This document shows positions 14,174 to 29,173 of a DNA stretch of 29,274 nucleotides, in pieces; the stretch's first letter is position 1; each line of letters opens with the position of its first letter. Under the pieces are notes generated by a model. It searched no databases. It was not told the origin of the DNA and worked only from the letters and a program-made list of their open reading frames with translations. A program made the translations under genes and the position numbers. The DNA lies in the IMG/VR virus record IMGVR_UViG_3300048591_000639, positions 1 to 29,274 of that record; one strand, 5' to 3'. The DNA is from a virus.

Positions 14174-15640
14174 TCAGAGACGGAACGCGATCTTGTTCGC
14201 AACGACGCGGAGGGCGTTCACCAGATCCGGCGGCAGCAGCATGTCGAGGCGGTTCGGGTCGCTCGCGTTGCGCTCGGAGACCAGGTTCTCCTTCATGGCA
14301 TCGATGTTCTCGACCAGCCCGATCTCTTCCCACTCGCGAGCCTTCGACACGTATTCCGCCTTCATCAGCGAGGGCGTGACGATGGCCTGGCCGGGTCCGT
14401 AGCGGGTGCCGTCCGACGCCAGCTTGTGGCGCGGATACTTGCGCTTCACGTAATCGCGCCAGTCGTGGCGGATGAACATCAGCGTCAGCAGCGTCTCGAC
14501 GTCCAGGTAGGACGTGTCGCTGGCGCCGGCCGAGTTCTCCTTGTAGGTCGTGATCAGGCGCTCGACCTGCATGGTGCCGCCGGCGTCGACCTTGGTCGTG
14601 GCGATGCCGTCGTAGAGCAGGATGTTCCGCTCTGCCATGGTGAAGCGGTTCGCCATCTTGGGCGCGATGCACCACCGGTACGGCAGGTTCTGGATCGGGC
14701 GGGCCGGGTCGATCTGCGCGTAGTAGGCAGCGATCGACGCCGTCTCCGCGGCCTTTTCGTAGGCCGGCATCGGGTTGTCGGCCGACTCGACGATGGTCAG
14801 GTGCGGACTGTTGCGCGCGTTGCCCAACGTGCCCAGGTTCGACAGCGTGTCGTTCGCGGCCGCAAAGGCATGACCCTCGAGTTCGCGCAGCGGGCCGAAG
14901 CGATCGGCCAGCTCGGTCTCGATGTCCGTCAGGGTGGCCGTGTCGGTCCAGCCGATTGCCCAGATGTGGAACCACTCGTCGCCGATGGCGGCGATGGCGG
15001 TGGACAGGTCCGGGTTCGTGGCGCCGCTGGCCATGTCGGTGATGGCGACGCCGACGCCGGCCGGAGTTTCCTCGCCGTCGTAGAAGTTCACCATCAGGGT
15101 GATCTCGTTCCCGCACTCGCCCTTGTGGCGGGCGGTGATCGCGACCGTGCCGGTCGTGTTGACCGCGGTAACCGGCAGGTCGGTGTCGGCGGTGATGGCG
15201 GCCTCGATCGCGTCACCGATGGCCGTTGCGCTGTCGCCGCTGGTGACGGCGACCTCGACCTCACGGCCGGCGATCAGCAGGTTCAGCGTGCCGGAGGCCG
15301 TGGCCGAGCCGGTGATGGCGATGCTGCCAGTGGCCTGCACGCCGGCGCCGTTGTCCGCCACCGGCAGGATCCACAGCTCGGTGAACGCGTCCTGGGTCAG
15401 CGCGGCCTCGATCATGCCAGCCAGCTGCGAGCCGGCACCGGCGAGCGTCTTGCCCTCGGGGATGCTGGTCACGCGCACGAGCTGGTTCGCCGTGGCCGTG
15501 CCTGCCGACAGTTTCTGTCCGATCAGCAGGCGGCGGTACGGGATCAGCTGCGGGCCGGATACGGCCTGGCTGTTGTCGATCTCGGAGTAGACGCCGGGGA
15601 CGCGGATGGTCGCCGGGATGTTGTCGAAGGAAATTGCCAT
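14174..15640 (-). CDS. Tail sheath protein (Mu gp39/gpL-like)
   Basis: A 488-aa contractile sheath subunit. It starts with AISFDNIPATIRVPGVYSEI, the typical Mu sheath N-terminus. The domain around residues 85-210 varies, and the conserved C-terminal part includes YRWCIAPKMANRFTMAERN, LMFIRHDWRDYVKRKYPRHK and GTRYGPGQAIVTPS. Sheath contraction drives the tube and spike through the outer membrane. ATG 15640 was chosen over GTG 15643. The gene abuts the stop of the gp38-like gene. Confidence 0.94.
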   Translation of the reverse strand: MAISFDNIPATIRVPGVYSEIDNSQAVSGPQLIPYRRLLIGQKLSAGTATANQLVRVTSIPEGKTLAGAGSQLAGMIEAALTQDAFTELWILPVADNGAGVQATGSIAITGSATASGTLNLLIAGREVEVAVTSGDSATAIGDAIEAAITADTDLPVTAVNTTGTVAITARHKGECGNEITLMVNFYDGEETPAGVGVAITDMASGATNPDLSTAIAAIGDEWFHIWAIGWTDTATLTDIETELADRFGPLRELEGHAFAAANDTLSNLGTLGNARNSPHLTIVESADNPMPAYEKAAETASIAAYYAQIDPARPIQNLPYRWCIAPKMANRFTMAERNILLYDGIATTKVDAGGTMQVERLITTYKENSAGASDTSYLDVETLLTLMFIRHDWRDYVKRKYPRHKLASDGTRYGPGQAIVTPSLMKAEYVSKAREWEEIGLVENIDAMKENLVSERNASDPNRLDMLLPPDLVNALRVVANKIAFRL

Positions 15641-15831
15641 CACTCACCCCCGGTGTGTTTCTTTGCGGCCGGCTTGGCCGCCTCGGTGACCTCGACCACC
15701 TCGCCGGCGGCGATGCGGCGCACCCAGTAGGTGGTCATCTCCACGCGCTCGCCTTCCGGCTTGAGGTGCTTGCCGTCGGGCTTGCGCACGAGCGCGCTGC
15801 CGGCGGGCTTGAGTTTCTTGATCTGAGCCAT
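15640..15831 (-). CDS. Mu gp38-like small tail protein (DUF2635)
   Basis: A 63-aa basic protein. It carries LVRKPDGKHLKPEGERVEMT and YWVRRIAAGEV, the core of DUF2635, followed by a Lys/Ala-rich tail. The gene always precedes the sheath gene in Mu-like tails; its role is not known. ATG 15831 is the first gene after the control region at 15832-16073, so it probably opens the tail operon. A longer in-frame extension to 16032 runs through the promoter region and is unlikely. Confidence 0.88.
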   Translation of the reverse strand: MAQIKKLKPAGSALVRKPDGKHLKPEGERVEMTTYWVRRIAAGEVVEVTEAAKPAAKKHTGGE

Positions 15832-15892
15832 GCCACGGTCCCCGGGGACGGTTGATGGGCGGTTCCGGCCTCTGCCGGCAGGATGGACCTTG

Positions 15893-15922
15893 ATTCTAGC
15901 AGCGATTTTCTCGCCCTGTGTA
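15893..15922 (-). promoter_or_regulatory. Candidate promoter of the tail operon
   Basis: On the - strand TACACA (15922-15917) and TAGAAT (15898-15893) are separated by 18 bases, and TGC precedes the -10, making it an extended -10 element. Transcription would start about 55 bases upstream of the gp38-like gene. The octamer CTAGAATC recurs in the candidate promoter at 29064-29071. Confidence 0.45.
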
Positions 15923-15954
15923 CCGGCGGCAAGGATTCGCATGTAATCCCGGGA

Positions 15955-15994
15955 ACTGGCCCAAATAGCCGTTCGTCGGATACTGGCCCGAATA
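15955..15994 (+). repeat. Pair of direct repeats, possible activator or repressor sites
   Basis: ACTGGCCCAAATA (15955-15967) and ACTGGCCCGAATA (15982-15994) match at 12 of 13 bases, 27 bp apart. They lie immediately upstream of the -35 of the moron promoter and 60-100 bases upstream of the tail promoter on the other strand, so either could be controlled. Confidence 0.5.
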
Positions 15995-15995
15995 C

Positions 15996-16024
15996 TTGCA
16001 ACCTGTCCCATTGGGAGTTTAACT
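15996..16024 (+). promoter_or_regulatory. Candidate moron promoter with palindromic operator
   Basis: TTGCAA (15996-16001) and TTAACT (16019-16024) are 17 bases apart. The spacer contains the inverted repeat TCCCA-T-TGGGA (16006-16016), placed so that a bound dimer would block RNA polymerase. The most likely binder is the HTH protein encoded by the third gene of this operon, as in autoregulated acr-aca operons. The -10 is a weak match. Confidence 0.5.
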
Positions 16025-16073
16025 ACCGTCACTGGGATGGCGCACGGGGCGCCCCCAGCAAGAGGACGGAACC

Positions 16074-16274
16074 ATGTTCAAGGTCAAATTCACCAAGGTC
16101 TATGTCGGCGGTTTCCTGGACGGCCGGAAGGCCGATGCCATCGAGACGTTCGCCTCGCGCGAGGAGGCAGACGCCAGGGCTCGCGAGCTGCGCAGCGCCG
16201 AGTACGATTTCCGCGCCGTGCGTGGCGCTGGCACGCAGCGCTTCATGCCGGTCGGCGCCAAGGTCGAGGGCTGA
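16074..16274 (+). CDS. Moron protein 1, 66 aa
   Basis: First gene of a + strand operon embedded in the - strand late region. AGAGGA lies 6 bases before the ATG. The protein is a small alpha/beta fold candidate: strands near FKVKFTKVYVGGFLDG, a helix REEADARARELRSA, then a strand at the end. No characterised family is recognised. Size, position and the downstream HTH gene fit an anti-CRISPR or other anti-defence protein, which is inference from context. The stop is 3 bases before the next start. Confidence 0.7.
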   Translation: MFKVKFTKVYVGGFLDGRKADAIETFASREEADARARELRSAEYDFRAVRGAGTQRFMPVGAKVEG

Positions 16275-16277
16275 GCC

Positions 16278-16493
16278 ATGACCGCCAAGATTCAATTCCA
16301 CACCGCCCAGTATCGCCGCAGCCAAATGACGGAGCCGCGTGGCCGCGGTTCGTGGGCCTTCGCTGTCGCTGGCCAGACCCTGTTCTCGCCATCGATGACC
16401 TACGGCGAGGCGAAGAAGTGGGCGCGCGAGCGCGTGCGCGAGATAGCCGCCGGCACGAAGGCCGCCATCGTCTACGTGGACGTCCTGCCATGA
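16278..16493 (+). CDS. Moron protein 2, 71 aa
   Basis: Follows the first moron gene after 3 bases. The sequence HTAQYRRSQMTEPRGRGSW contains PRGRGSWAF, a motif I recall from small hypothetical proteins of proteobacterial phages and mobile elements. The C-terminal half has a helix (MTYGEAKKWARERVREIA) and a strand (AAIVYVDVLP). Compact one-domain fold, function unknown. The stop overlaps the next start (ATGA), so it is translationally coupled to the HTH gene. Confidence 0.7.
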   Translation: MTAKIQFHTAQYRRSQMTEPRGRGSWAFAVAGQTLFSPSMTYGEAKKWARERVREIAAGTKAAIVYVDVLP

Positions 16494-16708
16494 CGCCGCG
16501 CGAATTCGAGAAGCTGACCGGGCTCAACGGTAACGAGTGCGCCACCCTGCTCAGGGTCTCGCACTCGAAGTGGTATGAGTGGCGCGACGGCCAGCGCACG
16601 GTGCCGCCCTACATCGTGGCCAGCATGGAAGCGCACGCTGCGCTATTCCGGGCTGGCATGCTCGCGCCAGTGCTCGCGCGCAGGCAGGCGGAAAAGCGGA
16701 AGGCTTAA
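16490..16708 (+). CDS. Small HTH regulator, Aca-like by context, 72 aa
   Basis: The protein has a helix-turn-helix of the Cro/XRE or CopG-like small regulator type. NGNECATLLRVSHSKWYEW (residues 13-31) gives helix-turn-helix spacing with Trp/Arg-rich recognition residues, followed by RDGQRTVPPYIVASMEAHAA, a pattern shared with Aca proteins and other antitoxin-like regulators. It is the distal gene of a three-gene moron operon whose promoter spacer holds an inverted repeat. This is the layout of Aca-autorepressed anti-CRISPR operons. Assignment as Aca is contextual. The start overlaps the previous stop. Confidence 0.7.
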   Translation: MTPREFEKLTGLNGNECATLLRVSHSKWYEWRDGQRTVPPYIVASMEAHAALFRAGMLAPVLARRQAEKRKA

Positions 16709-16748
16709 CCCTGATCCGGGATGCGCTCGTAGCCGATGGTAGCGGACG

Positions 16749-17111
16749 TCACGCAAGCTCCTTGCAGTAGGCGATGACTTTCCCGCGAGCACTGCTCGCA
16801 TCCTCTCCGGCTGTTACGCCGTGGCCCCGCGCGCCCTTGCCGGTGAGCCAGTTGACCAGCGCGCTGCCGTTGTAGCCCGGCCCGGGCTCAAGCACGAAGA
16901 AGCGGTCGTCGCTCTTGATCTGAGACAGTTGCGCGCCGCTCACGTCCGCCGTAATGACGAGCAGATTGACGGCATGGATGCCGTTGGCCAGCGGGTTGCC
17001 GGTGATGTCGTCGTATCCGGTCGGGCCGATGACATCGACCAGCAGAGGGCGGATTGCATCGCTGACGCTCGACCCGCTGCCGGTGTAGGGAGTGATGATT
17101 TCCGCGATCAT
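16749..17111 (-). CDS. Hypothetical late protein, 120 aa
   Basis: Not recognised. The protein starts MIAEIITPYTGSGSSVSDAI and contains YDDITGNPLANGIHAVNLLV and KSDDRFFVLEPGPGYN; it has an alpha/beta composition and no membrane segment. ATG 17111 overlaps the stop of the Ig/LamG-like gene (ATGA), so the two proteins are probably made together. This suggests a role with that virion surface protein, or as its partner. It converges on the moron operon with a 40-base gap that holds no clear terminator. Confidence 0.6.
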   Translation of the reverse strand: MIAEIITPYTGSGSSVSDAIRPLLVDVIGPTGYDDITGNPLANGIHAVNLLVITADVSGAQLSQIKSDDRFFVLEPGPGYNGSALVNWLTGKGARGHGVTAGEDASSARGKVIAYCKELA

Positions 17112-18022
17112 ACGGGGATGTCCGCCGGGTCAGTGGAGTTGACGACGTAGATGTCGGTAGCCGTGTAGGCCGGCGGGGAACCAGAGTCTCGCCAGAATCC
17201 GACCCCCGTGTTTGTGAGGTGCGTAGAAGCCAGCGAGTAACTGATCCGCAACGTGCCGTCGATATAGCAGTCGATGGTCGTGCCGTTAAAGACAATCGCA
17301 GCCTTGTACGCCGTGGTAGCGCCTGCCGTGTAACTGCCGCGAGAGACAGACGATCCGTTGACCTCGTACAAAGTCCAAGCAGTCACGTCGTGGAACAGCA
17401 GCCAGTACGCGGTCCCCGTGGACTGCCTGCAAAGCAACCCGGCCTTGCTGACCAGCGAGGACGTTGCCACGATACCGTCAGATATGCCGGCGTTGATCGC
17501 AACCGACGTGAACGTGTCGCTGGCCGAGGTGCGGACAAGAGTTGTGCCGGTCGCGCTGTCAATAGCGAATACAGGCGGCGTGCCGCTATTGACGTAGTTG
17601 GCCCACGAACCGCTCGCCGGGCTGTTGAGCGTGTCCGGCGTGTGCGCCGTGATCGCAGCCCCCGGCGTGTCCGTGAACGAGTCGTAAAGCAGGGTGAAAT
17701 TGACTTCGCTGGTATTCGTTATCGAAACCGGACCGAACGAGGCGACATCTCCACCTGCACCAGCAAGATCTCCGGTGTCGGCGTCGTAGCTGACCGTGCC
17801 GACCGAGCCGCCCGCGTAGACCTTCGGGATGGTGAGGTCGACGTTCACGCCGTCGATGGCACCAGACGATATCGAGCCGGTCGAGCGCGTGAATCCGAGC
17901 GCAGCCGTGCCAGTGACGGCCTCGCTGAACACCATCCGCAGCGTAACACCATCGGACAGGATGGTCGCTGAGACCAGCGTCGGCGCTATTGCGTCGTCAG
18001 AAAACAGCGTCAGCAGCCCCAT
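17108..18022 (-). CDS. Putative virion surface protein with Ig-like and LamG-like domains, 304 aa
   Basis: Residues 12-100 (PTLVSATILSDGVTLRMVFS and onwards) follow the pattern of bacterial Ig-like or SwmB-type repeats. Residues 108-300 look like a concanavalin/LamG-like beta sandwich, with WLLFHDVTAWTLYEVNGS, YKAAIVFNGTTIDCYIDGTL and THLTNTGVGFW as its strands. Such domains bind carbohydrates. The gene lies between neck genes and tail genes on the late strand, so the product is probably attached to the head or tail and may help adsorption. Its sequence is Ser/Thr/Gly-rich and appears less GC-rich than its neighbours, consistent with horizontal exchange. Confidence 0.65.
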   Translation of the reverse strand: MGLLTLFSDDAIAPTLVSATILSDGVTLRMVFSEAVTGTAALGFTRSTGSISSGAIDGVNVDLTIPKVYAGGSVGTVSYDADTGDLAGAGGDVASFGPVSITNTSEVNFTLLYDSFTDTPGAAITAHTPDTLNSPASGSWANYVNSGTPPVFAIDSATGTTLVRTSASDTFTSVAINAGISDGIVATSSLVSKAGLLCRQSTGTAYWLLFHDVTAWTLYEVNGSSVSRGSYTAGATTAYKAAIVFNGTTIDCYIDGTLRISYSLASTHLTNTGVGFWRDSGSPPAYTATDIYVVNSTDPADIPV

Positions 18023-18026
18023 GACG

Positions 18027-18386
18027 TCAGCGCTTCGCCAGGATCAGGTGGACGGTCCGGCTCGATCCCGGATTCGTCACCGCAGTCCCGAGGCTGATGC
18101 CGACGAACGGCGGAGTGAACGGGTAGTCGGACGGCTTCAGGCGCACGAACTCGTCGGCGGCGAAGGTGATCGACACGGCAGCTCCGGCGCCATCCTTATA
18201 CTCTTTCGGCGCGTCAATGGCGGTGCCGAACAGCAGGCTCCCGGTCGTCGCCTCCAGGCCAGCAGGCGTGCGCAGGCCTGCGATCACGTAGTCCTCGAGG
18301 GGCTGGTTCGAACCCAGCACGCTCGTGGTGGCGACGAGCGCCGAGTCCGTTTCCCCGTGCGCGATAACCAGCGGGATCTCCAGCAT
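18027..18386 (-). CDS. Hypothetical virion-associated protein, 119 aa
   Basis: A beta-rich small protein: LEIPLVIAHGETDSALVATT, LEDYVIAGLRTPAGLEATTG, AAVSITFAADEFVRLKPSDY, ending TVHLILAKR. The layout resembles head-decoration or fibre-cap proteins that occur between neck genes in marine and freshwater phages. ATG 18386 was chosen because GGAGG lies 8 bases upstream; ATG 18392 is nearer than is ideal to the same site. Its stop is 4 bases before the next gene, so it is part of the same accessory surface group. Confidence 0.6.
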   Translation of the reverse strand: MLEIPLVIAHGETDSALVATTSVLGSNQPLEDYVIAGLRTPAGLEATTGSLLFGTAIDAPKEYKDGAGAAVSITFAADEFVRLKPSDYPFTPPFVGISLGTAVTNPGSSRTVHLILAKR

Positions 18387-18463
18387 TGTCATGGCCTCCA
18401 AAGTCAGGCCGCAACCGCGGCCAATTGACACGAATCATAACCCGGCGCCGGCGCCGGCGGCGG

Positions 18464-18922
18464 TCAGTCGAGGTAGAACGAGAACTTCGCCCACACCTTG
18501 TGATTGTTCAGGCTGACCGGGTGCTCGAGCATGACGTCGCCGTCCTGCTCTACCCGGATGTGGCAGTAGTCCGGGGCGTTCGTGTTGTCGTGCACCTGGC
18601 CGACAAAGGACTGGACAAGCGACGGACGGTATCCCGTCGGCAGGGTGAAGATCGGACTCGCGTTCCCGTTCTGCACGGCCATGCGCACGTCCACCCTGGA
18701 GCAAACCTTCCGGAACTGGGCAACCTGTTCGGTGCCGCCGATGTTCGCCCACGAGTTCAGCAGCGTCGGCGCCGTCCAGGCAACGCCGTGACCGTTCAGC
18801 AGCGCCTGCAGAGTCTCGAACGTGATCTTCCGCGACAGCCCGCCGGCCACCACGTAGAACAGGTCGGTCAGGGACAGCGACGTCGCGGCCGCGAGTTGAG
18901 AAAGCTTCTTGTCGGTAGCCAT
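18464..18922 (-). CDS. Head or tail fibre-like protein, 152 aa
   Basis: The N-terminus KKLSQLAAATSLSLTDLFYV with RKITFETLQALL is the short anchoring motif of many phage head-fibre and tail-fibre proteins. Residues 45-152 form a beta-rich distal domain (WANIGGTEQVAQFRK, VDVRMAVQNG, IFTLPTGYRP). It starts 2 bases after the neck gene stop on the same strand. Together with the three downstream genes it makes a surface-protein block between head and tail genes. The receptor or virion attachment site is unknown. Confidence 0.65.
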   Translation of the reverse strand: MATDKKLSQLAAATSLSLTDLFYVVAGGLSRKITFETLQALLNGHGVAWTAPTLLNSWANIGGTEQVAQFRKVCSRVDVRMAVQNGNASPIFTLPTGYRPSLVQSFVGQVHDNTNAPDYCHIRVEQDGDVMLEHPVSLNNHKVWAKFSFYLD

Positions 18923-18924
18923 GG

Positions 18925-19566
18925 TCAGGTTTCCTCAGTGAGATATCCGCCGCTCTCGACCAGCAGGTGCGCGCCGTCCTCGAGCAGCAGCGGCGGGCCG
19001 TCGATGGTGATCGTGTCGCCCTTGCCGGCGTCGGCCTCGCCGTCCTCGTCGCTCAGGTCGTACTCGGTATGCAGGGTCTGGAAGTCGTCGAGCGTGCTCG
19101 CGCCGCACTCGTCTCCCGGCAGCCACTCGTAGTAGTCGGCCTCGAAGGTCAAGGCCGCGACGCCGATCATCTTCTGGCCCTGGTCGACGATGCCCAGGCT
19201 GGTGCCCGTCAGCTGGAAGTCGGCACACGTCCCGCCCATGGTGTCGTCGCGCAGGAGCAGGCACTCGACCGTGCGCGCGAAGTCGTCGAGCTCGGCGTCC
19301 AGTTCCGTGGTCGGGCCGATCTCCTTGCCGCACTCGACAACGATCTCGACCGTCCGTCGGTATCGACGCGGCGCCGCCTCGAAGATGACCGACGTCTCGG
19401 TCGTGCTGTAGATGATGATCGCCGGGAACCCGGTCCGGCCGGCGCGCGCGGTCGCCTGCTGAGTGATCGGGTTCGTCCGGTTCACGGACACCCTGTCCTC
19501 GGCAATGGTGTTGTCCAGCAGGGCGGTCTGCACCGCCTGGCGGATGAGCGTGCGCGGGTGCGTCAT
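18925..19566 (-). CDS. Tail terminator / minor tail protein (Mu gp37 or lambda gpU-like)
   Basis: A 213-aa protein. The opening TLIRQAVQTALLDNT and the FPAIIIYSTTETS, RRTVEIVVECG and DELDDFARTVE-like segments match small tail-terminator proteins that cap the tail tube and meet the head. It then extends by an acidic tail (EYDLSDEDGEADAGKGD). Position after the FII-like gene and an ATGA overlap with it (19563-19566) support a neck role. The C-terminal 40 residues are unusual for the family and may be a separate small module. Confidence 0.65.
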   Translation of the reverse strand: MTHPRTLIRQAVQTALLDNTIAEDRVSVNRTNPITQQATARAGRTGFPAIIIYSTTETSVIFEAAPRRYRRTVEIVVECGKEIGPTTELDAELDDFARTVECLLLRDDTMGGTCADFQLTGTSLGIVDQGQKMIGVAALTFEADYYEWLPGDECGASTLDDFQTLHTEYDLSDEDGEADAGKGDTITIDGPPLLLEDGAHLLVESGGYLTEET

Positions 19567-22540: not shown

Positions 22541-23422
22541 GTCGGACACCTCCGGTTGTACGCCGCTGGCCGCGGCCCCACTTTTCACCGGGCCGGCGTA
22601 CCGCCCGGAAGTCAGCTCGGAGACGATGCCCTCGAACGACCCCACGCGGTCCGCCAACCCGGCGGCCACTGCGGCCTGGCCGACGAGGACGTCGCCCTGG
22701 CCGTAGTCCCTCAGCACCGTGTCGCGGTCCACGCCGCGGTACGTTGCCACCTTGTCCACGAAAACATCCGACAGCGAGTCGACCAGCGCCTGCATGCGCG
22801 CGAGACCTTCGTCGGTCCCGGGGTCGAGTCGCTTGTACGGCGACTGGCTGCTGACGATCTCGTACGTCTTTTCGCCGGCCTTCGCCTCTTTCTCCCGGGT
22901 GTCCCGGACGGTCATCACCGTGCCGATGGATCCCAGGATGGCGGTGTCAGCGATCACGACCTCGTCAGCGGCCGATGCCAGCCAGTATGCCGCACTTGCG
23001 CCCAGTCCGCCAACATAGGCCAGGATTGGCTTCTTCCCCCGGGCAGCCGCGATCTGGTCAGCGAACTCCGACACCCCGTTGGCCTCACCGCCAGGGGAAT
23101 CGATGTTGAGGATGATCGCCTCGACCCTGGGGTCGTCCACGGCCTTGGCGAAGTCGCGGGCCAGCAGGTCGTAGGACGTCGCCCCGCTCAGGGCCGTGAA
23201 CAGGTTCGCGTACCGGAACAGCGGGCCGGTGACGGGCAGGATGGCCACGCCGTCCCGGTACTCGACGTCGTAGGTGTTCTCCAGCGGCCGGCCAAGCTTC
23301 TGCGCCACGGCATCCGGCGACAGGTTCTGCCGCTCGGCGATGGTCATGATGGTGTCCATCATCTCCTGGGTGATGGCCCAGGGCTCGGACTTGATCTTGC
23401 CCAGGATGCGCAACAGGCTCAT
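22130..23422 (-). CDS. S49 head maturation protease (lambda gpC-like), 430 aa
   Basis: Processes head proteins during capsid maturation. The SppA/S49 catalytic domain covers residues 55-265: ILNIDSPGGEANGVSEFADQ, then GGLGASAAYWLAS with the nucleophile Ser143, and SPYKRLDPGTDEG with the likely general base Lys197. Residues 266-294 are a linker, and the C-terminal 136 residues form a scaffold domain that also has its own start (see the nested gene). The gene begins with an ATGA overlap on the HNH gene inserted between it and the portal. Confidence 0.9.
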   Translation of the reverse strand: MSLLRILGKIKSEPWAITQEMMDTIMTIAERQNLSPDAVAQKLGRPLENTYDVEYRDGVAILPVTGPLFRYANLFTALSGATSYDLLARDFAKAVDDPRVEAIILNIDSPGGEANGVSEFADQIAAARGKKPILAYVGGLGASAAYWLASAADEVVIADTAILGSIGTVMTVRDTREKEAKAGEKTYEIVSSQSPYKRLDPGTDEGLARMQALVDSLSDVFVDKVATYRGVDRDTVLRDYGQGDVLVGQAAVAAGLADRVGSFEGIVSELTSGRYAGPVKSGAAASGVQPEVSDMDPKDDKQPAAGSQPEQITAATVAEKHPEVAAALRAEGRADGVKSERDRVKAILSSTEAEGRGELAQALAFEGDIAPEQAIALLAKSPKAAAPRVDPLSQAMATEKNPQVGADADGAPPSDPVAFIASAAKKAGIA

Positions 23423-24078
23423 AGGGTAACCCCCGTGACGGTCGGTCCAGCGTCCACGCTGAACCGGTTGTTTTTGGATGCGTTCACGGAGCCCGGCAGG
23501 ATCTGCAGGTTGTGTTCGCAGTGGAGCCCGCAGACCAGTGGCGAGACGAGCGGAACAATGTGATCAACATGGTACGCGACACCCGTCTCAACGGAAATCA
23601 GGCCGGCCAGGTCGTAGTAGTCAGCGATCTTCTGCCGGTCGCGCCACTCTGGTGAGGCCCGGCGTACACGTGCCCGGCGCTCTGCCATGTACATTACCCG
23701 CAGGTGCGGATTCGCCTTGCTCCACTCCCTTGAATACGCGGTCCGCTTTTCGCGGTGCTTCCGGTACATCCGGTGTCGCTTCGCCGCTGCGGCATCCTTG
23801 TCCGCCGCATAGCGCTGGCGCTCAATGGCTCTGAGGCGCTCCCGATTCTCTCCCTGCCATTCGGAGTGGTACTCAGGGTTTTCCGTGCGCCACGCCTTGT
23901 TGTACTCCGATACCCGCTCACGATTATTCGCGGCCCACTGGCGCTTAGATTCGCGCCGGCAAGGGCGACAGTTGCTGTTCAGCCCGTCACGCATCCGCTT
24001 GTTAGAGCCGAACTCGGCTACTGGGCGCGTCACGCCGCACTTCGTGCAGCACTTTGTCTCAGCGGCCAGCGCGTTCAC
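23419..24078 (-). CDS. HNH endonuclease inserted between portal and protease genes, 219 aa
   Basis: The C-terminal region carries the HNH core: YHVDHIVPLVSPLVCGLHCE, HNLQILPGSVNASKNNRF. The N-terminal 45 residues have a CxxC...CxxC zinc-binding pair (C11/C14 and C37/C40), and a long Arg/Glu-rich helical region (about 45-140) links the two. Free-standing HNH genes of this form behave as homing endonucleases that spread between phage genomes. ATGA overlaps on both sides (24075-24078 and 23419-23422) fit it cleanly between portal and protease, a place that is empty in lambda. Cleavage target unknown. Confidence 0.87.
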   Translation of the reverse strand: MNALAAETKCCTKCGVTRPVAEFGSNKRMRDGLNSNCRPCRRESKRQWAANNRERVSEYNKAWRTENPEYHSEWQGENRERLRAIERQRYAADKDAAAAKRHRMYRKHREKRTAYSREWSKANPHLRVMYMAERRARVRRASPEWRDRQKIADYYDLAGLISVETGVAYHVDHIVPLVSPLVCGLHCEHNLQILPGSVNASKNNRFSVDAGPTVTGVTL

Positions 24079-28456: not shown

Positions 28457-29026
28457 TCAGGCAGCGGCATAGCGCCGCGTGTTGTCGTTCGCCGGCCTTG
28501 GGAACAGGTGTGTCCTGCACTTCGGTCCAACCCATCGCCCGTGCTCGATGCTGTGGCAAACCTCACAGAGGGTAAGACCATTCGATACTTCGGTAGCCAA
28601 CTCCTGATTGCTGGCATAGGGCTTGATGTGATGCGCGTGCAGGTGCTCTTTTGCCCCGCACCGCCGGCACTCCCATCCATCCCTGTCTTTCACTGCACGC
28701 TTCCAAGCGGCAAGCGCGCCGCTAAGGCGTGCACGATTGCGCTCTAGCGACTTTCCATCCTTCCACTGAGATGACCGTTCGCCTGACCTATACAGGCCGG
28801 AACACTTCTTTGAGCAGAACTTCTTTCCGTGCCCATCAGCGGTCCCAAACGTCACCCCGCACTGCAGGCAATCTGTGTGGGCGCGCGTCAGCCTGCATTC
28901 GGCGCTGCAGTATCGAGAGGTGGTCGCACGGTGGGCATGAGTCTCGTAATCCTTCCCGCACTTCGCGCAGGTCAGCGTCACACGGTTTCGCCGGCACAGA
29001 ACCGGTTTCCCCTTGATCGCTGGCAT
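28457..29026 (-). CDS. HNH endonuclease with zinc fingers next to the terminase, 189 aa
   Basis: The C-terminal domain is HNH: WECRRCGAKEHLHAHHIKPY, NGLTLCEVCHSIEHG, with His132/133, Asn149 and CxxC pairs at 120/123 and 154/157. Three further Cys pairs in the N-terminal part (20/23, 40/44, 53/56, plus 71/75) form zinc knuckles. HNH genes beside terminase are common in cos-packaging phages, where some stimulate terminase cutting; a homing nuclease is the alternative. ATG 29026 was chosen because upstream codons run through the palindromic control region. Confidence 0.85.
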   Translation of the reverse strand: MPAIKGKPVLCRRNRVTLTCAKCGKDYETHAHRATTSRYCSAECRLTRAHTDCLQCGVTFGTADGHGKKFCSKKCSGLYRSGERSSQWKDGKSLERNRARLSGALAAWKRAVKDRDGWECRRCGAKEHLHAHHIKPYASNQELATEVSNGLTLCEVCHSIEHGRWVGPKCRTHLFPRPANDNTRRYAAA

Positions 29027-29049
29027 TGCGGTCGCCCCCTGCAGTCGGT

Positions 29050-29085
29050 CGGTTGTCAACGTCGATTCTAGGCGGTTGACAACCG
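29050..29085 (-). promoter_or_regulatory. Palindromic operator around a candidate late promoter
   Basis: CGGTTGTCAAC (29050-29060) and GTTGACAACCG (29075-29085) are an exact 11-bp inverted repeat with a 14-base centre. The centre carries the - strand hexamer TAGAAT (29070-29065), with TTCCCA (29094-29089) at 18 bases, so the repeat arms flank the -10 of a promoter for the packaging/head genes. CTAGAATC is shared with the tail promoter at 15893-15898. Confidence 0.55.
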
Positions 29086-29173
29086 GCATGGGAAGCCGGG
29101 TCCGCAACCTTCGCGCGATTGCACGCGCACGCACTCCCGGTCACGGCGAGCCACGGCCGTACACGCGCCGGTT

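Follow-up and report, generated by a model that had tools for sequence, protein, structure and literature searches.

Three short genes set within the tail-gene block of a phage genome probably constitute, on balance, an autoregulated accessory (moron) cassette, and the second of them belongs to a conserved protein family that is found almost only in viruses and is uncatalogued. The window, that is, the whole stretch of DNA analysed here, is a 29,274-base virus record from a Mu/SfV-tailed phage. Its main block, on the - strand, comprises terminase, portal, S49-type protease, capsid, tail terminator, DUF2635, tail sheath, tape measure, baseplate and lysis genes, several of these roles having been assigned from gene order. 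The sheath shares 57% identity with that of Bordetella phage PBb001 and about 42% with those of SfV-like phages. An identical sheath (100% across 381 residues) is present in a second viral contig, IMGVR_UViG_3300048837_000578 (L060), which starts within the sheath gene, so that the cassette region lies outside its coverage.

The window contains further genes of a probably mobile or acquired character. Two HNH-type genes lie on the - strand (23419-24078 and 28457-29134); one matches Pfam HNH and adjoins a small-terminase-like gene, while the other, between portal and protease, displays CxxC and HVDHIVPL-type motifs by eye and has no Pfam match, and both are likely mobile endonucleases. In addition, a C5-cytosine DNA methylase gene on the + strand (1606-2421) has an unusually low GC3 (0.58 versus about 0.9) and was probably acquired recently.

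The first-pass annotation had described open reading frames of 66, 71 and 72 aa on the strand opposite to the late genes, and the sequence bears this out: all three are on the + strand, the flanking DUF2635 gene, sheath gene and open reading frame are all on the - strand, and the second stop and third start codons share the ATGA at 16490-16493 (Table 1). The arrangement conforms to the short-gene operon of AcaFinder, in which all genes lie on one strand, encode fewer than 200 aa and are less than 250 bp apart. Genes 1-3 have a GC3 of 0.85-0.86, and GC at the three codon positions of the cassette (about 0.64/0.50/0.86) follows the pattern of the phage's own genes; because this resembles the neighbouring genes, the three look coding and compositionally at home, and the coding status of gene 2 is backed by homology as well.

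Table 1. Features of the cassette and its surroundings (window coordinates)
Feature	Position	Strand	Remarks
Sheath gene	14174-15643	-	Cassette neighbour
DUF2635 gene	15640-15831	-	Cassette neighbour
Accessory insert, 3.1 kb	15832-18924		Between tail terminator and DUF2635/sheath genes; missing in relatives
TCCCC-GGGGA dyad, core of GTCCCCGGGGAC (15838-15849)	15839-15848		Candidate regulator site 3
TCCCGGGA dyad	15947-15954		Candidate regulator site 2
Direct repeat copy 1, ACTGGCCCAAATA	15955-15967	+	
Direct repeat copy 2, ACTGGCCCGAATA	15982-15994	+	
Candidate core promoter TTGCAA-16-TTTAAC	15996-16023	+	8/12 to consensus; weak, putative
TCCCA-T-TGGGA dyad (TCCCATTGGGA)	16006-16016		Between promoter hexamers; candidate main operator
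Gene 1	16074-16274	+	66 aa; orphan small protein
Gene 2	16278-16493	+	71 aa; uncatalogued virus-only family
Gene 3	16490-16708	+	72 aa; single-domain HTH protein, putative autorepressor
Flanking open reading frame	16749-17111	-	Cassette neighbour
Tail terminator gene	18925-19566	-	Far border of insert

The cassette is part of an insert that splits genes which adjoin in related phages. In PBb001 (L006) and in two further loci, L064 and L066, the DUF2635 and sheath genes directly follow the tail terminator and the insert is absent, and the existence of relatives without these 3.1 kb identifies the position as an accessory (moron) site. The relatives compared are distant (28-57% identity in the compared genes), and the insert therefore marks an accessory site and not a recent event. 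Besides the + strand cassette, the insert holds four accessory genes on the - strand (16749-18922; 120, 304, 134 and 152 aa), whose products are unknown or tail-fibre-like, the 304-aa product having a weak laminin-G/lectin-like match under the cutoff. Like phage morons, the cassette is a small unit set between conserved genes, on its own strand and probably with its own promoter; it differs from them in having three genes rather than one and a GC content equal to that of the phage. A simple scan found no terminator for the cassette.

A scan with gene 2 recovered three relatives, and the alignment of these led to 51 viral loci, a count in which distant members are under-represented because the scans were seeded from short conserved peptides; the family loci comprise the window gene itself together with L007-L059. 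Only two members turned up in 84,980 bacterial and archaeal genomes, and a profile run against 399 Pseudomonadota genomes matched the centre genome alone, which had been picked for the set because it carries the family. In 33 aligned members P20, G22, G24, W26, F28 and A45 are invariant, and gene 2 has both family motifs, P-R/K-GRGSWAF and FSP-MT--EAK; none of the 33 matched Pfam or PHROGs. The model of the protein is confident (pLDDT 93), with a beta-alpha-beta-beta-alpha-beta order, and it found no fold match in the PDB (best E 0.63), and one confident structural match among viral proteins, V9QKW2 (E 1e-5, TM about 0.8).

The relatives, which include EVC24_129 of Rhizobium phage RHph_I4 and the 51 IMG/VR loci, share the conserved motifs and a similar length with gene 2, whereas their surroundings differ. 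There the gene sits in small-gene clusters, often next to SSB, methyltransferase-type or winged-helix genes; SSB and methyltransferase-type genes are frequent neighbours, and those recognisable by Pfam include SSB, DUF4942 and MarR-type winged-helix genes. Neither a relative of gene 3 nor an Aca-like HTH partner was found near the gene 2 relatives, in the loci or in 32 whole records. It is a serious possibility, though short of an even chance, that the cassette is a small-protein module, controlled by gene 3, that acts against other defences (restriction, nucleotide-based or abortive) or in host takeover, a role that the gene 2 family would then perform in many phages. As a special case of the autoregulated cassette, this possibility is consistent with the restriction of the family to viruses and with neighbours typical of phage DNA-metabolism operons; however, gene 2 has no annotated relative in Pfam or PHROGs, and the family could equally serve replication or recombination.

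The same distribution bears on a toxin-antitoxin-like or superinfection-exclusion module acting in the lysogen, in which the toxin would be gene 1 or gene 2 and gene 3 the antitoxin or repressor. In higBA-type modules, too, the HTH gene comes last in a small operon, and small accessory genes within an insert would suit such a function, yet gene 2 relatives occur without a gene 3-like HTH antitoxin partner and the family is almost absent from bacterial genomes, which makes this explanation very unlikely.

Gene 1 is an orphan: no relatives were found in phages, viral contigs or the 399 genomes, and its only resemblance is a weak SPOR-like stretch under the cutoff. Neither gene 1 nor gene 2 belongs to a Pfam, PHROG or NCBIfam family. 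PADLOC, NCBIfam and Rfam gave no match above cutoff.

Gene 3 is predicted to encode an HTH-type helix bundle, as supported by its structural model and by weak matches. The AlphaFold2 model, built from the single sequence, places helices at residues 3-10, 14-20, 40-54 and 59-71 with a pLDDT of 80, the other four models reaching 63-65. No significant relatives were found in phages, viral contigs, bacterial genomes or plasmids. The family matches are all below cutoff: HTH_31 (E 0.027), Aca2_YdiL (PF08965; E 0.15, 12.6 bits against a gathering cutoff of 23.8) and the VC1465 Xer activation factor family (NF040522; E 0.008, 16.2 bits against a curated cutoff of 70), so that gene 3 falls outside both of the latter. 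The weakly matching phrog_8898 was also tried, and was set aside after giving only scattered HTH-like stretches.

The weak similarities nevertheless point in one direction. With phmmer, nothing in the PDB apart from three Aca2 sequences (E 0.85-0.9) was matched at E values up to 10, and Aca2 and Aca1 occupy most of the top Foldseek places (E 0.15-0.3), accompanied by ClgR and restriction controller proteins; the nearest HTH domains are those of Aca2, Aca1 and Aca10, none significantly so. A search with the DNA pattern of the recognition stretch led to two phage XRE-type HTH proteins (L105 and L106) that share WxxWxxGxRxVPxY, and a profile of these with gene 3 ranked Aca2 first (E 0.003), a score that is partly circular because both proteins had been selected on the gene 3 motif. 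A scan with the alignment of L105 and L106 yielded no further members. Gene 3 bears a weak resemblance to Aca2/YdiL in its N-terminal HTH, in a stretch that includes W, G and VP residues; Aca2, however, is 116 aa long (PMC8434428), and at 72 aa gene 3 is too short to include the C-terminal dimerisation domain. The comparison with Aca families that had been proposed as a check gave no significant match for the gene downstream of the small genes (Aca1, Aca2 and Aca10 structures and Pfam being compared), and gene 3 is best described as an Aca-like single HTH protein outside any family testable here.

The region upstream of gene 1 is rich in inverted repeats. The 242-bp intergenic region contains eight 5-bp dyads with loops of 0-8, against a shuffle mean of 2.8. 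The dyad TCCCA-T-TGGGA, which the first-pass annotation had placed in the promoter spacer, is real, as are the two direct repeats it had reported upstream. Taken alone the dyad is weak evidence, and a single palindrome was dropped as proof of an operator, since dyads of 5 bp turn up often in sequence of this kind; the repetition of one arm is the better evidence. The pattern TCCC-N0..4-GGGA occurs three times upstream of the cassette (15839, 15947 and 16006) and nowhere else in the 29-kb window, and, with every 4-bp arm tested, 2 of 2000 dinucleotide shuffles produced three dyads having one arm in common. Three or four dyads, with GCGC- or GCCG-type arms, are also reached in some GC-rich parts of the window; the case that the same-arm enrichment is not due to chance is good without being overwhelming. 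The direct repeats, ACTGGCCC(A/G)AATA at 15955 and 15982, have no further copy in the window, and equally good ones appeared in 4% of shuffles. The candidate core promoter is the best of the region, and a stricter scan did not list it.

One of the dyads and a second promoter-like site could also be read as serving the tail genes. If gene 3 mainly controlled divergent DUF2635/sheath transcription, the small genes being passengers, it would fit that the 15839 dyad and the ribosome-binding region of DUF2635 overlap and that an extended -10 promoter-like site lies on the - strand at 15922-15893, which could set sheath-operon transcription going again on the downstream side of the insert. This is a most doubtful reading, as the same tail genes occur in relatives without the cassette and the 15839 dyad may be incidental precisely because of that overlap.

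The annotation had proposed an operon of the acr-aca type, and the cassette does resemble anti-CRISPR operons in layout, judging by analogy with Aca1, Aca2 and Aca10 systems. As in these, short co-directional genes are followed by a distal HTH gene of about mean Aca size, Acr-associated Aca proteins mostly averaging 60-65 aa (PMC9410906), and the cassette occupies an accessory place among structural genes. Characterised acr-aca operons carry an inverted repeat within the core promoter (PMC9410906), and the TCCCATTGGGA dyad lies inside the candidate core promoter here, itself a weak one. The proposal is thus partly supported. In layout, in the dyad within the candidate promoter and in its accessory site the cassette matches acr-aca operons, and what stands is a probably self-repressed accessory cassette; gene 3 lacks significant similarity to Aca1, Aca2 and Aca10, and no known acr was found in Pfam, PHROG or NCBIfam.

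A true acr-aca operon, in which gene 1 and/or gene 2 inhibit host CRISPR-Cas and gene 3 founds a new Aca family, is quite unlikely. Its attraction comes from the operator position, from Aca2 and Aca1 as the nearest solved neighbours of gene 3, and from an insert at an accessory site among the structural genes of a phage with a Mu-type tail; Mu-like phages of P. aeruginosa hold anti-CRISPR genes at an accessory site. GC is lower at that Pseudomonas site, whereas the cassette has the same GC as its phage. Against it count the Aca2_YdiL score below the gathering cutoff and gene 2 relatives free of an Aca-like HTH partner. Because the small proteins resemble no family in the libraries searched and no such partner was found beside the gene 2 relatives, anti-CRISPR activity is a guess, and CRISPR is one possible target among many.

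The autoregulated accessory cassette would work as follows. The candidate promoter at about 15996-16023 would fire once phage DNA enters a cell free of gene 3 protein, and both small proteins and the HTH protein would be made in a burst. A dimer of the latter would then bind the TCCC...GGGA dyads, one of them between the promoter hexamers, and shut the operon, so that the opposing tail genes would no longer be transcribed in antisense; the host or its defences would be an early target of gene 2, and probably of gene 1. This reading is supported by the layout with its ATGA overlap, by the insert that is missing in PBb001, L064 and L066, by the HTH model of gene 3 and the Foldseek ranks of Aca2 and Aca1, by the three same-arm dyads and by the virus-restricted gene 2 family. 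It is weakened by gene 3 considered by itself, whose family and fold matches are all non-significant and whose profile is partly circular, and by the weak promoter, the phage-like GC and the lack of a second genome carrying genes 1-3 together among the phages, viral contigs and bacterial genomes searched.

To conclude, the operators of gene 3, should it prove to be an Aca-type repressor, would provide a handle to find more such cassettes. A bolder and rather unlikely extension is that gene 2 founds a large virus-only counter-defence or takeover family, with a fold absent from solved structures, which stands here under a new Aca-type autorepressor family. The more solid gain, and a more lasting result than the reading of cassette regulation, is the uncatalogued gene 2 family itself, which is conserved, missing from Pfam and PHROGs, and has a confident model without a PDB match. 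A small, virus-only protein that is kept across diverse phages makes a good candidate for a host-takeover or anti-defence function yet to be described, and one that is directly assayable.
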